From Ignavibacteriota bacterium (GTDB taxonomy: Bacteria; Bacteroidota; Ignavibacteria; SZUA-365), in assembly GCA_016218045.1 (NCBI GenBank), contig JACRFB010000023.1, positions 1 to 41,001 of the forward strand: a stretch of DNA of 41,001 nucleotides. The letters are read 5' to 3'. Of this stretch, positions 1,706 to 15,625 are shown piece by piece (within the stretch, counting starts at the first letter, position 1; the number at the start of each line of letters is the position of its first letter). Both the position numbers and the translations under genes were made by a program. The notes beneath the pieces were generated by a model. The model was not told the origin of the DNA, ran no database searches, and saw only the letters and a program-made list of their open reading frames with translations.

Positions 1706-3917
1706 GCTAGGAATTACACGGCAGGCACTGGATAAGCGACGGAAAAAGCCCGGAGTCTGCCACTATGTCACACGGCCGGTCGTCCGCCGAGGTGGACTGC
1801 AGCACGAATACGCACTCTCGAGTCTTCCCCTTGAAGCCCAGGCTAAGTACCATGCTCAGCAACTCGCGACCAAGGGCGCGACGATGGAGGATCCGGCGCA
1901 GCGGAACGATGTAGACCTGGGTCTCGAGCTCGAACGGTACATTTCCGAGCCCGAGTACAACCGCCGGAAAGCGGAACGGGACTTGATTCTAATGCAGGAA
2001 TTCGAAGGTCTCAACGGCAAGGATCTCGATGCTGCTGTAGCGGCGTGGAATAAGGCCCATGCAGATGATCCGCGCATGCAGACCAGCTCGCGATCAGTCC
2101 GCCGGATGCGGACGCAGCACCAGAAATATGGCGTAGAGGGGCTCCTCGCCAAATACGGAAGGAACCGGAACCGCAGTCTGGCGATCGAGGATCTAGGTCC
2201 ATTACAACAGCATGTGTACGCCAATTTTAAAACGAACTATTTGGATGATAGGAGCCCTTCGGCGGCTGCTTGCTGCCTCGCGGCGCAGGGACTTGCGATC
2301 GAAATTGCAGAGCGGATTGCCCCGGCGATGGTGCCAGATTTGCGCGCGCGATTCCCGCACGCCTCGACTTTCGTCCGTGCAATACACGCCGAACTCGGGG
2401 AGTCGCAGGTGTACCTGGCGCGTGCGGGCTACCAGGCGTGGAATCGCCGGTACGCCTCTCATATAGAACGTGACGACGCGGGCGTGGCGGCCGGCCGTGC
2501 GTGGATCTCGGATCATCACCAGCTCGACGAGATGTGGCTCGCGCGCCTGCGCGACGATGCGAATGTGCCGGCGGAACTCAGGCGCGCCCTGCAGGACGAC
2601 GCGGCGCTGTTCGATGGGACGCAACGGCGGCCGTGGCTCACCGTCTGGCGCGATTACAAGACGGGCCTGTGGCTCTCGTGGGAATGCCGGTTCTCGTCGC
2701 CGAATGCGCAGCGAGTCATGACCACTTTTGCTCAGGCGGTATTGCGGTACGGTCTGCCTGACGAGATCGTGATTGACAATGGAAAAGACTACCGCGCGAA
2801 GGACTTTGCCGGCGGACGGCTTAAGGTCGAGGTCGACGAGCGGACCACGAAATCGATGCTCGCCATCCTCGGAGTCAGGGCACGATTCGCCTGGCCGTAC
2901 CACGGGCAGAGCAAGGCGATCGAACGCGACTTCCGCACCTTCGACGGATGGAAGAGCCGGTTCACACCGGGGTACACAGGCAACAGCGCGGCGAACAAGC
3001 CGGAGTCTGCCGGATCGGCCGCGATGCGCCGGGCGCTGTTGTGTTACGACGAGGGGGTCGAGCTGCTGGATCAGTTTGTAAATACCATCCTCCACACGGC
3101 TGCCTCGAACGGGAAGAATATGCGCGGCCGCTCGCGCCTGCAGGCATGGGCGGAGGAGTTCCACGGCCTCCGCACGGTGACGCAGGAGTCGATCGCACTG
3201 CTGACGATGCGCACCACGCCGCCCCGTCTCATCGGCCGCAACGGTGTGATGATCAACGGCCGTAACTGGTACGCACCATGGATGGAGAAGTACAAGAGTA
3301 CGCGCGGCGGCATGCGGATATACCTGCGCGTGCCCGACGACGAGACGGCGGGCGAGGCCTGGTGCTTCTCGGCCGAGACTGACGAATACATGGGGCGTGC
3401 GCAGAGCGACATGTTCCGTGCACCTGGCCTGGCTGTTACAGAAGAGGAGAGCACCCGGGTCTCTGACGCGATTCGGCTCATGAAGGACACACACAATGCC
3501 GCGCGCGCAGCCGTGCGTCGCGACGGCGTCCCAGACGTGCGCGACGTACAGAGGCACATCGCGCGGGCGCTTGAATCAGGCGCTGTGCCGGCAGGACGGA
3601 CTGTGGAAGTGCGCGAGGCAGAGGGACTCGATCTGGCAGCGCATGCAGTGTCGCCCGAGGGTGTCATACTCGCGCATGCGGGTGAACGCGTGACGCCGGC
3701 GATTGCCGAGGCGCTACTGGCTGCAGGAATCACACACGTGCAGGTGGCGCCGGATCGCAGACAGATCCAGATCAGCGCGGCCGACCGCGCAATTGCCGAG
3801 GATGCGCAGATTCAGCGCACCGGCACATACGCATTCCCCGAGCCGCCCGAGAAACCGGCACGGCGCAAGTGGAGCACCTGGCGCTCGGACGAGGTCGGAT
3901 CAGGAGATGAAATATGA
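1635..3917 (+). CDS. MuA-type DDE transposase
   Basis: This 760-residue protein should catalyse strand transfer for integration and replicative transposition. The N-terminal 60 residues (VWLSRDETCNLLGITRQALD) form a Mu-type winged HTH that binds end or enhancer sites. The RNase H-fold core has acidic residues that fit the DDE triad: D293 in WISDHHQLD, D381 in IVIDNGKDY and E430 in KAIERDFRTF. A beta-barrel Mu transposase C-terminal domain follows near residues 520-600 (RNGVMINGRNWYAPWM). The basic, helical tail may contact MuB. The length is close to MuA (663) plus about 100 residues. It starts with GTG and has only a weak ribosome site, so translation may be limited. Confidence 0.93.
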   Translation: MKSTNKSSRRASDVWLSRDETCNLLGITRQALDKRRKKPGVCHYVTRPVVRRGGLQHEYALSSLPLEAQAKYHAQQLATKGATMEDPAQRNDVDLGLELERYISEPEYNRRKAERDLILMQEFEGLNGKDLDAAVAAWNKAHADDPRMQTSSRSVRRMRTQHQKYGVEGLLAKYGRNRNRSLAIEDLGPLQQHVYANFKTNYLDDRSPSAAACCLAAQGLAIEIAERIAPAMVPDLRARFPHASTFVRAIHAELGESQVYLARAGYQAWNRRYASHIERDDAGVAAGRAWISDHHQLDEMWLARLRDDANVPAELRRALQDDAALFDGTQRRPWLTVWRDYKTGLWLSWECRFSSPNAQRVMTTFAQAVLRYGLPDEIVIDNGKDYRAKDFAGGRLKVEVDERTTKSMLAILGVRARFAWPYHGQSKAIERDFRTFDGWKSRFTPGYTGNSAANKPESAGSAAMRRALLCYDEGVELLDQFVNTILHTAASNGKNMRGRSRLQAWAEEFHGLRTVTQESIALLTMRTTPPRLIGRNGVMINGRNWYAPWMEKYKSTRGGMRIYLRVPDDETAGEAWCFSAETDEYMGRAQSDMFRAPGLAVTEEESTRVSDAIRLMKDTHNAARAAVRRDGVPDVRDVQRHIARALESGAVPAGRTVEVREAEGLDLAAHAVSPEGVILAHAGERVTPAIAEALLAAGITHVQVAPDRRQIQISAADRAIAEDAQIQRTGTYAFPEPPEKPARRKWSTWRSDEVGSGDEI

Positions 3918-4249
3918 AGCACGATGATGTGGAATGGACGACCGCCATCAACACATGGATGCACTTCTCACTCTTGCGTGAAGCAGCGATCGATCCGCAC
4001 GCCGAGTGGTGGATTCGCACTCACATCACCCAATGGCTGAAACACGTCGACGCGGCGACGGCGCTGCTCCTGCTCGATATGATGCAGATGTGGGAGGACA
4101 TCCGTGAGTACTACAGTCAGTTCTATCAGCAGATACAGGACAACCTCATCGTGCCCGACACCCGTGCCGGACTCATGTCGATGAAAGATATCCGCGAGAT
4201 GCTTCGCGACATCGCCGGCACTCAAAACGTAGACGAAAATCTCCCATAA
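3914..4249 (+). CDS. Unknown 111-residue protein between transposase and MuB genes
   Basis: The ATG at 3914 overlaps the transposase stop and follows AGGAG at 3902..3906. The product is acidic, rich in Trp and Met and predicted helical (TALLLLDMMQMWEDIREYYS), with no signal peptide, membrane segment or known motif. Its place inside the transposition operon suggests an accessory role there. No family was recognised. A strong hairpin follows the stop. Confidence 0.65.
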   Translation: MKHDDVEWTTAINTWMHFSLLREAAIDPHAEWWIRTHITQWLKHVDAATALLLLDMMQMWEDIREYYSQFYQQIQDNLIVPDTRAGLMSMKDIREMLRDIAGTQNVDENLP

Positions 4250-13429: not shown

Positions 13430-13807
13430 TCAGTTCAGCGCCTTAAGCAGCAGCGAGAACGTGAGTCCGCGGGCGATTGCAGAGATCGCGATGAGGCCCA
13501 GGAACATGATGGTGACATCGCGCAGTGGCTTGGCGCGCCTGTCGAGTAATGTAGTTGCGCCGAGCAGGCCGAGCGCCGCAACGGCTGCACCGAACTTGTC
13601 GGCAGTATTGTGTATCGTCTGCACGACGTGCCATCCATCGTGCGGGATCCAGTCGGCATACCATGGCCAGTGAGGCGCGCGATATGCCATGTCTACGAGC
13701 CCCGTGGGCTGCCATCCGTGCTGAAATGCCTGCAGCTCGTAGTCGGAGAACGAGCCAAGAGCAAGCAGGACAAAGCCAATGATGATGATGTAAATAGTCT
13801 GCTTCAT
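13430..13807 (-). CDS. Small multi-pass membrane protein in the head operon
   Basis: The ATG at 13807 (MKQTIYIIIIGFVLLAL) is chosen because GGAGG precedes it; the longer frame upstream lies within the neighbour. The 125-residue product has about three hydrophobic segments near residues 4-20, 70-90 and 95-118. Holin or superinfection roles can be imagined but nothing diagnostic is present. The overlap with the upstream gene (ATGA type) shows coexpression. Confidence 0.65.
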   Translation of the reverse strand: MKQTIYIIIIGFVLLALGSFSDYELQAFQHGWQPTGLVDMAYRAPHWPWYADWIPHDGWHVVQTIHNTADKFGAAVAALGLLGATTLLDRRAKPLRDVTIMFLGLIAISAIARGLTFSLLLKALN

Positions 13808-14229
13808 GCTACCTCCATAATCTCCTGCACAACAGCGTCTCGCGCCGCGCGCAGGTGCAGGAGCCGCGCTGGCAGGTTCTGTTCCATCGCTGCTGCAAGG
13901 ATCTGCGCGAGCGCCACGGCGCGCTGCGCACTGAGTCCGAACAGCGACACGAATTCGTTCAGCGTGATGTGGCAATCAAACGCATCCATCTGCAGTGCCG
14001 GCTGATGCCTGTATCCGTTTTCGACAGCCAGGATCTGTTTGTCGATGTACGCGACGGCTTTGTTCAAATCGCGTGTGGCGTCGGGTGTTTTGTCACCTGC
14101 GCGTACGATGTACTGGAACGCCGCCGAGAGCATGAAGTCGAGCCCCCGCGCGCCGATAAAATCCCAGACCTGCACGTTGCCGCGCTGGTAGTAGGACGGG
14201 CTGAACTCAGATGACGTTGTGTTTTCCAT
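13804..14229 (-). CDS. DUF3310-containing protein
   Basis: The 141-residue product starts at the ATG at 14229 with AGGAG upstream. Residues 10-60 (SPSYYQRGNVQVWDFIGARG, then FQYIVRAGDK and DLNKAVAYIDKQI) match the DUF3310 family, sometimes annotated as a phage nucleotide kinase-like protein without direct proof. The C-terminal half is helical and unrecognised. The gene interrupts the head genes and is preceded by a highly structured leader (14251..14341). Confidence 0.8.
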   Translation of the reverse strand: MENTTSSEFSPSYYQRGNVQVWDFIGARGLDFMLSAAFQYIVRAGDKTPDATRDLNKAVAYIDKQILAVENGYRHQPALQMDAFDCHITLNEFVSLFGLSAQRAVALAQILAAAMEQNLPARLLHLRAARDAVVQEIMEVA

Positions 14230-14250
14230 GACTCTCCTGTAAGTTGGATC

Positions 14251-14341
14251 ATGCTCCGGTGACACGGTGAATCTTCCGGCCGTAGGCGCCTTAACAAGGC
14301 TGACCGCTATGCGAGAGAATGGAAGTACTCGCCCGGAGCAT
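14251..14341 (-). ncRNA. Cloverleaf-like structured RNA candidate with kissing loops
   Basis: A 9-bp closing stem (14251..14259 with 14333..14341) encloses three arms. On plus-strand numbering these are ACGG/CCGT (14264..14267 with 14280..14283, 12-nt loop), GCCTT/AAGGC (14288..14292 with 14296..14300, 3-nt loop) and GCGAG/CTCGC (14311..14315 with 14328..14332, 12-nt loop). The two 12-nt loops carry CTTCC (14273..14277) and GGAAG (14321..14325), which can pair. Read leftward, it ends about 12 nt before the ribosome site of the DUF3310 gene, so a cis-regulatory RNA fits best. It does not fit a standard tRNA. Confidence 0.5.
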
Positions 14342-14344
14342 TTA

Positions 14345-15625
14345 TCATTCCTCTTGCCGCTCGAATACCACCGTACCTCGTTTCCGCACACGCGCGACAT
14401 CCTGTGCGTCGGTTTTTCTGAACGAGCGCAGATAGACGGCGCTTCCGTCCTTTGTGCCACGCGCGACGGCATGGTACCACACTTCCCCTGACCGTGTGAA
14501 GATGAGCGTATCTGCGCGTTCACGAATCACGACGTCGGGATCGCCGATGATTACCGGCAAAGCACGGTAGTCGTCCGGCGTCATTTCTGGATGCTTCACC
14601 GCCTGTTCGGCCACTGTTTCAGACGAGAGCAGCACGCTGTTCGTTTGAACGCCGATCGCCTTTTGCAACGCTTTGGACATGATCGCGGCGGTTACATTAC
14701 CACTGCCCTTACCTTCAAGAAGGCGGTTAAACACCACACTGTTTGCCACGTCAGTGACAAATGCAGCGGCCAAACGGCTATCCTTCCCGCGCAGATCCGG
14801 CTGCCAGTCGACACTGCCAGGATTGTAACTGAATCCCGGCCCGGTGCTGTACACCTCGTCCCCGATCTTGAGAGTCGCCACCGTGCGCAGCTCGCCAGTG
14901 CGCTCACTCACAAGTACTTCGGATTCGCCCAGGGCGCCCTCGCTCGTGGAGACCTCGAGGTTGTCTCGTTTAAGTTCACGCGCGCTGAGGGACGAGACGC
15001 GCGATCGGCAATTCCAGTGGTTCGGCGGGTACATCACCGACCAGATCGGATCGTCGTAGCGGTACACACGGCCGTTGATTCCGGCGCAGATCGTGGTGGT
15101 GCGTTCGTCGCCCGGGTTGTTGTACTGCCAGTACGGCCGCTGCTCCGCAACTTCTACCATGCGCCGATAGCGGCCTGCATTCAGCGCCGACTGCATGTTC
15201 ATGCGATAGATTGTGCGCAGCCGATGCGGTGCACCAAGGAGCGGCGGCCGTTTGTCTGCCGGCGTAATCTGAGCGCCGCTCGCGTCAGTGGGGAACGGCA
15301 CGCCGTGCTCGTCGACGAGTTGCCCCTGATCATTACGCGGCCAGGATCTGCCCCACCATCCGGCAAGTTTTAAAAACGGTTCAAGCGATCGCTGGAATTT
15401 ATCGAGCGAAATCCCGTCTGACACAGCACGGTCAACCATCTGTCGTATGCCTTCGAGCACGTCGAGGTTCATTGCCTTCGCGACAGTGAATGCGCGAGCC
15501 TGAGACTCCTGCCACACGTCACGCCAGTCGTATCCGACGGCATAGCCCTTCGCGCGCAAAAACTCCACCGCCTTTTCCGGTGGAAGACGAAATGCGACCT
15601 GTAACAGATCGGCGGCCGGCGGCAT
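14345..15625 (-). CDS. MuF-type head morphogenesis protein with C-terminal nuclease-like domain
   Basis: The 426-residue product has a Mu gp30/SPP1 gp7 core around residues 60-215, ending in the typical YPPNHWNCRSRV. Residues 330-420 (LLSSETVAEQAVKHPEMTPD, ALPVIIGDPDVVI, WYHAVARGTKDGSAVYLRSF) resemble the phage Barnase-EndoU-ColicinE5/D-RelE-like (PBECR) nuclease domains known at MuF C-termini. MuF proteins are minor capsid components bound to the portal. A nuclease tail could be carried in the virion and delivered with DNA, though it might also act only in assembly. No separate immunity gene was recognised next to it. Confidence 0.85.
   Translation of the reverse strand: MPPAADLLQVAFRLPPEKAVEFLRAKGYAVGYDWRDVWQESQARAFTVAKAMNLDVLEGIRQMVDRAVSDGISLDKFQRSLEPFLKLAGWWGRSWPRNDQGQLVDEHGVPFPTDASGAQITPADKRPPLLGAPHRLRTIYRMNMQSALNAGRYRRMVEVAEQRPYWQYNNPGDERTTTICAGINGRVYRYDDPIWSVMYPPNHWNCRSRVSSLSARELKRDNLEVSTSEGALGESEVLVSERTGELRTVATLKIGDEVYSTGPGFSYNPGSVDWQPDLRGKDSRLAAAFVTDVANSVVFNRLLEGKGSGNVTAAIMSKALQKAIGVQTNSVLLSSETVAEQAVKHPEMTPDDYRALPVIIGDPDVVIRERADTLIFTRSGEVWYHAVARGTKDGSAVYLRSFRKTDAQDVARVRKRGTVVFERQEE

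Follow-up and report, generated by a model that had tools for sequence, protein, structure and literature searches.

What is the compact, cloverleaf-shaped element that lies between the gene for the MuF minor head protein and a DUF3310 gene in a 41,001-nt stretch of DNA from an Ignavibacteriota bacterium (contig JACRFB010000023.1; hereafter, the window)? An earlier note on this DNA had described a perfect 9-bp closing stem with three arms, two of them with mutually complementary loops, and had offered a cis-regulatory RNA, a tRNA mimic and a packaged RNA as possible identities. This architecture stands: the closing stem and the arms are present in the sequence where they had been placed, CTTCC and GGAAG are exact 5-nt complements in the loops of the first and third arms, and the element indeed lies between the two genes, 3 nt from the MuF stop codon and just upstream of the DUF3310 gene. 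The features of the locus are as follows.

13804..14229, minus strand: DUF3310 gene, located between the RNA and gpG
14217..14245, plus strand: candidate promoter of the RNA, TTGTGT-N17-TAAGTT, ending 5 nt 5' of the RNA
14251..14341, plus strand: whole element, a tRNA-shaped RNA (class I), scoring 62.7 bits (E ~8e-13) with model R1 and 63 bits with model R2, both built without the window
14251..14259, plus strand: acceptor stem, 5' side, forming a perfect 9-bp helix with 14333-14341
14264..14283, plus strand: D-arm, with a 4-bp stem (ACGG/CCGT) and a 12-nt loop, TGAATCTTCCGG
14273..14277, plus strand: CTTCC in the D-loop, pairing with GGAAG of the T-loop
14288..14300, plus strand: equivalent of the anticodon arm, with a 5-bp stem and a 3-nt loop, without an anticodon loop
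14311..14332, plus strand: T-arm, with a 5-bp stem (GCGAG/CTCGC) and a 12-nt loop, AGAATGGAAGTA
14321..14325, plus strand: GGAAG in the T-loop, partner of CTTCC at 14273-14277
14333..14341, plus strand: acceptor stem, 3' side, pairing with 14251-14259
14345..15625, minus strand: MuF (gpF) minor head protein gene, convergent with the RNA (Pfam Phage_Mu_F, 3.6e-20)
14348..14683, minus strand: PBECR3-like predicted RNase domain at the MuF C-terminus (Pfam PBECR3, E 0.2), the proposed partner of the RNA

In relatives, gpG usually follows the RNA directly, at the place taken in the window by the DUF3310 gene, and we therefore regard the latter neighbour as incidental. The start region of the DUF3310 gene overlaps the candidate promoter of the RNA.

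Relatives were not easily reached by similarity, as nucleotide searches with the element against phage and plasmid records returned nothing useful. A terminase search of bacterial genomes led to a Mu-like prophage on a contig of a Candidatus Aminicenantes metagenome-assembled genome (L035), which carries a related element directly 3' of the MuF gene, with stems and loop-loop pairing changed together. A motif pattern run over viral contigs yielded 11 more true members; L038, L041, L048, L050, L051 and L052, which match the motif pattern only, were left out. Model R1, which finds the window, was built from eight members in minus-strand orientation. Among named phages, Mannheimia phage 3927AP2 carries a class I element (L158, 1984-2093, minus strand; 45 bits), and Haemophilus phage SuMu carries its element after MuF on the minus strand (L163), with a T-loop, TTCGAG, as in true tRNA. 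In Rfam, the window element has no meaningful family match, and the RNA family is therefore overlooked by annotation pipelines.

Folding energy alone makes a moderate and ambiguous case for structure: the window element has a z-score of -3.1 for the minus strand, compared with -1.6 for the plus strand, whose minimum-energy fold differs from the cloverleaf. Comparison is far more informative. Across 25 aligned members, 98.6% of the cells in the stems and the loop-loop helix are paired, 19 of the 27 pairs of the four stems and this helix show changes on both sides, and the covariation score of 0.494 (0.137 in shuffles, at most 0.086 when slid) was reached by none of 500 shuffles; because the alignment was fitted to the stems, these counts lean towards them, and the margin is large. 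Among relatives, the acceptor stem displays double changes in all 8 modelled pairs, and the stem of the anticodon arm varies with compensation. The loop-loop helix varies at a single pair within the 25 rows, the variant being the window with CTTCC/GGAAG, where most relatives have CTCCC/GGGAG. Four further versions come from L120, from class II elements (see below) and from phage SuMu, so that six are known: CUCCC/GGGAG, CUUCC/GGAAG, CUGCC/GGCAG, CUCGC/GCGAG, CUGGA/UCCAG and CUCGA/UCGAG. An alternative pairing present in some members, ACGCG/CGUGU, fails in L036 and in the window and was dropped. The earlier note had proposed a covariance model search and a survey of compensatory changes, and both are strongly positive, in the stems as well as in the loop-loop pairing. 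The comparison of sequences thus confirms the cloverleaf as a real structure; that it arose by chance, with which the modest plus-strand z-score would agree, is a negligible prospect given the shuffles and the hits by independent models.

On which strand is the RNA made? The minus-strand reading of the element, which was also the initial assumption for model R1, is overturned by wobble pairs and promoters. Cells of the stems that depart from Watson-Crick pairing favour A-C on the MuF strand, and hence G-U on the opposite one, by 9:1 (p 0.02; the count excludes one invariant position bordering the D-stem), placing the RNA on the strand opposite MuF. Sigma70-like promoters precede the RNA in most relatives, e.g., TTGACA-N17-TAATGT in the Aminicenantes prophage, TTGACA-N17-TATATT in L039, and TTGATT-N17-TATATT in both L152 and Mannheimia phage 3927AP2, and the mean promoter score is 7.5 on the RNA strand versus 0.2 on the other. 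The candidate promoter in the window is weak (p 0.095) and has the geometry of the strong promoters of relatives. Orphan genes, among them L168 with its terminator-like hairpin (see below), indicate the same strand. For the family, it is therefore well supported by sequence that the RNA is read from the strand opposite MuF, i.e., the plus strand of the window, where the promoter itself is weak.

This orientation bears on two further explanations. The element could be a cis-acting structure in the minus-strand MuF-gpG mRNA that controls the translation, decay or processing of the neighbouring genes, as its location between two late genes and its better minus-strand z-score would allow; the 9:1 excess of wobble pairs for the other strand, the promoters found there, the tRNA-like relatives on that strand and the orphan copies without MuF-gpG genes described below render this improbable. 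The cis-regulatory RNA suggested in the earlier note loses ground for the same kind of reasons, because the element is opposite to the MuF-DUF3310 transcript, has promoters in relatives and recurs as orphan genes away from MuF. Alternatively, a cis-encoded antisense RNA might repress MuF or a neighbour through the late mRNA, to whose F-G junction it is complementary, the fold serving only for stability. The compensated stems and loop-loop pairing point instead to selection on shape, orphan copies have no such target, and the loss of the RNA together with a catalytic histidine, considered below, would not be predicted, so that we find the antisense explanation quite improbable.

Read on the plus strand, the element follows the plan of a tRNA, with an acceptor stem, a 4-bp D-arm, an equivalent of the anticodon arm, a 5-bp T-arm and pairing between D-loop and T-loop, but it has no anticodon, since only a short loop closes the anticodon arm. 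The motif TTGTTAA, in which an Asn anticodon loop had been seen, is found on the minus strand of the middle arm; the Asn reading fails, because the RNA is on the other strand, a loop of 3 nt caps the 5-bp stem of this arm, and the short loops of relatives are unrelated. In the window, neither ARAGORN nor Rfam RF00005 reports a tRNA, and class I falls outside the tRNA model. Class II elements (L067, L078, L129, L142 and L153) have the acceptor stem and the D-loop/T-loop pairing in common with class I and, as read by eye and by a complement check, an extra 3' hairpin whose loop complements another loop. MuF proteins with C-termini of the phage Mu type are accompanied by different tRNA-like elements that share this location and orientation, several with -10-like boxes, and three of these loci (L122, L091 and L075) exceed the Rfam tRNA cut-off, their anticodon arms again being capped, as they are in all classes, with short caps in relatives. 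Terminator-like hairpins are present in L112 and L117, and also in two loci with a PBECR2-type end, L102 and L127.

In L075, the gap that follows MuF contains three consecutive tRNA-like elements (3855-4163, minus strand), one of which ARAGORN calls tRNA-Lys despite a 3-nt loop on the anticodon arm. L102, L127 and L070, in which the MuF ends are of the PBECR2 type, have, on the opposite strand, a short structured element preceded by a promoter, in two cases with terminators; these are possibly further RNA classes.

Acceptor stem, D-arm, T-arm and D-loop/T-loop contact are thus shared with tRNA, as is the ability of some Mu-type relatives to score as tRNA, whereas the 7-nt anticodon loop of tRNA is missing and five base pairs join the D-loop to the T-loop. 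Of the three options in the earlier note, the tRNA mimic is the one that finds support, as a tRNA plan without an anticodon. A phage tRNA, intact or decayed, that replaces a tRNA cut by a nuclease or by host defence would account for the Mu-type loci above the Rfam cut-off. It is very improbable all the same, as every class lacks the anticodon loop, ARAGORN reports none in the window, and compensated stems speak against decay.

If the RNA mimics tRNA, what does it serve? The adjacent MuF protein of the window combines a MuF domain with a variable, toxin-like domain at the C-terminus, the toxicity being putative, and different C-termini sit on related MuF N-termini. Against PBECR3 (PF18812), the C-terminal domain of the window scores 12 bits, with a curated cut-off of 30 bits; relatives reach up to 1.4e-7, and L046 scores 31.8 bits. 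The AlphaFold2 model of the domain (pLDDT 94) aligns best with chains of BrnT, the colicin D tRNase, CDI toxins and RelE, at Z-scores of 5 to 6.8, all below 8; ToxN is absent from the list of fold matches, which says nothing either way. From profile and model together, we predict a BECR-type RNase fold of the colicin D/RelE type.

To compare RNA and domain, 80 MuF loci were retrieved by the N-terminal MuF domain, blind to both the RNA and the C-terminus. Counted over 76 complete MuF loci, and without counting L072 (17 bits), which has a PBECR2-type end, as class I, the class I model matches 9 of the 15 loci with a PB3 domain and none of the 61 without (p 4e-8). The other six PB3 loci carry class II (four loci), a divergent class I element (L073) and another promoter-led structure (L064). 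Retrieval by the C-terminal domain added 20 loci, nine of them contigs not met before, and class I or class II RNA follows MuF in all 20. On a tree of the N-terminal MuF domain, the 11 rows of class I require 11 changes, the same number as with random labels. Of nine independent pairs with differing domains, eight show a parallel difference in the RNA and none an opposite one (p 0.008). Domain and RNA therefore move together, the body of MuF not being predictive of the RNA, and sequence comparison supports well a partnership in which the RNA follows the type of C-terminal domain rather than the MuF lineage.

The state of the domain matters as well. MuF proteins shorter than 350 aa, without a C-terminal domain, are followed by gpG after at most 11 nt in 18 of 20 cases. 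Where Mu-type domains have a histidine motif, the gap measures 86-341 nt and contains a tRNA-like element in 13 of 13 loci; where the motif is lacking, the gap is at most 10 nt and the element absent in 9 of 9, a comparison that comprises no more than four independent pairs, which all agree in direction. L081 and L098, with a different motif at the histidine position, have a gap with a promoter. Phage Mu itself lacks the histidine motif and has neither a gap after MuF nor an RNA, and its domain is independently called inactive in a passage of Iyer et al. 2017 (PMC5512222). There are exceptions: L068 has an 80-nt gap without a C-terminal domain; PBECR2 loci are mixed; and in Alteromonadaceae phage B23 (L156, 1948-2222), a PB3-like MuF end is followed by a gap of 273 nt that contains no recognised member of these RNA classes, be it an exception or a further RNA class. 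Presence where the RNase domain looks intact and absence where it looks broken suggest that the RNA probably restrains a toxin of the phage's own.

Orphan copies extend the picture beyond phages. Among 394 other genomes from the phylum of the host, the RNA model detects them in five, with neither MuF nor a PB3 domain encoded within ~1.5 kb, and a profile search found no PB3 domain in the five genomes. The orphans in L164 and L165 have a strong promoter, and that in L168 (1501-1604), near an ORF with an HSDR_N domain (type I restriction), is followed at once by a terminator-like hairpin and a T-rich run. Others, in L166 with L169 (genome G220) and in L167 (genome G332), stand at the end of repeat arrays that resemble CRISPR, with the repeat ATTTCAATCCTCATCCGCCCCGGAGGGCGGATGCGAC and a period of ~72 nt. 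These copies (L166, 1201-1293 and 1501-1596; L167, 1501-1593) are near-identical, although the two bacterial genomes belong to different families, and one of the genomes has two of them 300 nt apart. Separately, a viral contig (L044, 214-299) carries a copy with a lengthened acceptor helix after lysis-like genes, and the PB3 domain is absent from the sequence stretch around it.

The orphans help to weigh another explanation, that the RNA works together with the MuF nuclease domain, be it as guide, activator, substrate or co-packaged molecule, carried into the virion or the next host. Pairing of RNA and domain, and loss of the RNA with the catalytic site, are equally expected for such a partner; however, orphans in genomes without the domain would have nothing to serve, and host-type promoters suggest expression apart from the late operon, which makes a working partner unlikely.

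We consider it likely, with some reserve, that the element is an immunity (antitoxin) RNA that mimics tRNA and would counter a phage RNase, inhibition being the inferred step. As such, it would be a small plus-strand RNA gene, probably read by the host RNA polymerase from its own sigma70-type promoter, and the dedicated partner of the MuF-terminal RNase domain. The domain may attack tRNA or a tRNA-like target, and the RNA would bind it as an uncleavable decoy, so that the producing cell and lysogens would be protected up to the point at which the virion carries the toxin away; cells in which the RNA alone is retained may be protected from such phages. More tentatively, and as a possibility that we would not yet call probable, virion-borne nuclease toxins may in general be restrained by convergent, anticodon-less tRNA mimics, with matched swaps of toxin and RNA, loss of the RNA with the catalytic site, and protective orphans in bacteria, some next to CRISPR-like repeats. 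If true, this would be, as far as known, the first immunity to a polymorphic toxin provided by RNA instead of protein, by means of tRNA mimicry, and would explain both the unannotated gap of ~100 nt after many MuF genes and its absence in phage Mu. The role of MuF C-terminal domains would also become directly testable, since the proposed antidote points to the likely class of substrate.

How does this arrangement compare with known systems? With phi29-type packaging RNA, complementary loops are the only likeness, and no Rfam match was obtained. The proposed logic, with a structured RNA as the restraint on an endoribonuclease from a neighbouring gene, is that of type III toxin-antitoxin systems (ToxIN, CptIN and TenpIN). 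The antitoxin RNAs of type III systems are tandem repeats upstream of the toxin in the same operon, whereas the RNA described here is tRNA-shaped, single-copy and encoded downstream of the toxin gene on the opposite strand with promoters of its own, and a phage head protein contains the nuclease as one of its domains, which is modelled as BECR type. Colicins D and E5 and CDI tRNase toxins, which provide the best fold neighbours of the MuF domain, are countered by immunity proteins; for the MuF domain, immunity is proposed to come from an RNA similar to the likely substrate. MuF polymorphic toxins, consisting of MuF and a variable C-terminal toxin-like domain, nucleases included, were described by Jamet et al. 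2017 (PMC5576092), who sought small downstream immunity proteins, where we find an RNA gene on the other strand before the next structural gene. PBECR domains are presented in part of the text of Iyer et al. (PMC5512222) as predicted metal-independent RNases fused to MuF, a part that describes no associated RNA, whereas here the presence of the RNA follows the catalytic motif. A search of a collection of openly accessible papers for MuF-linked or tRNA-mimic antitoxin RNAs returned nothing relevant. That an RNA may restrain an RNase is a broad idea already known, and we know of no toxin-immunity pair with a tRNA-shaped RNA. To our knowledge, the novelty lies in the type of RNA, in how it is arranged and in its partner, and gene order, strand and RNA architecture depart from the definition of type III systems.
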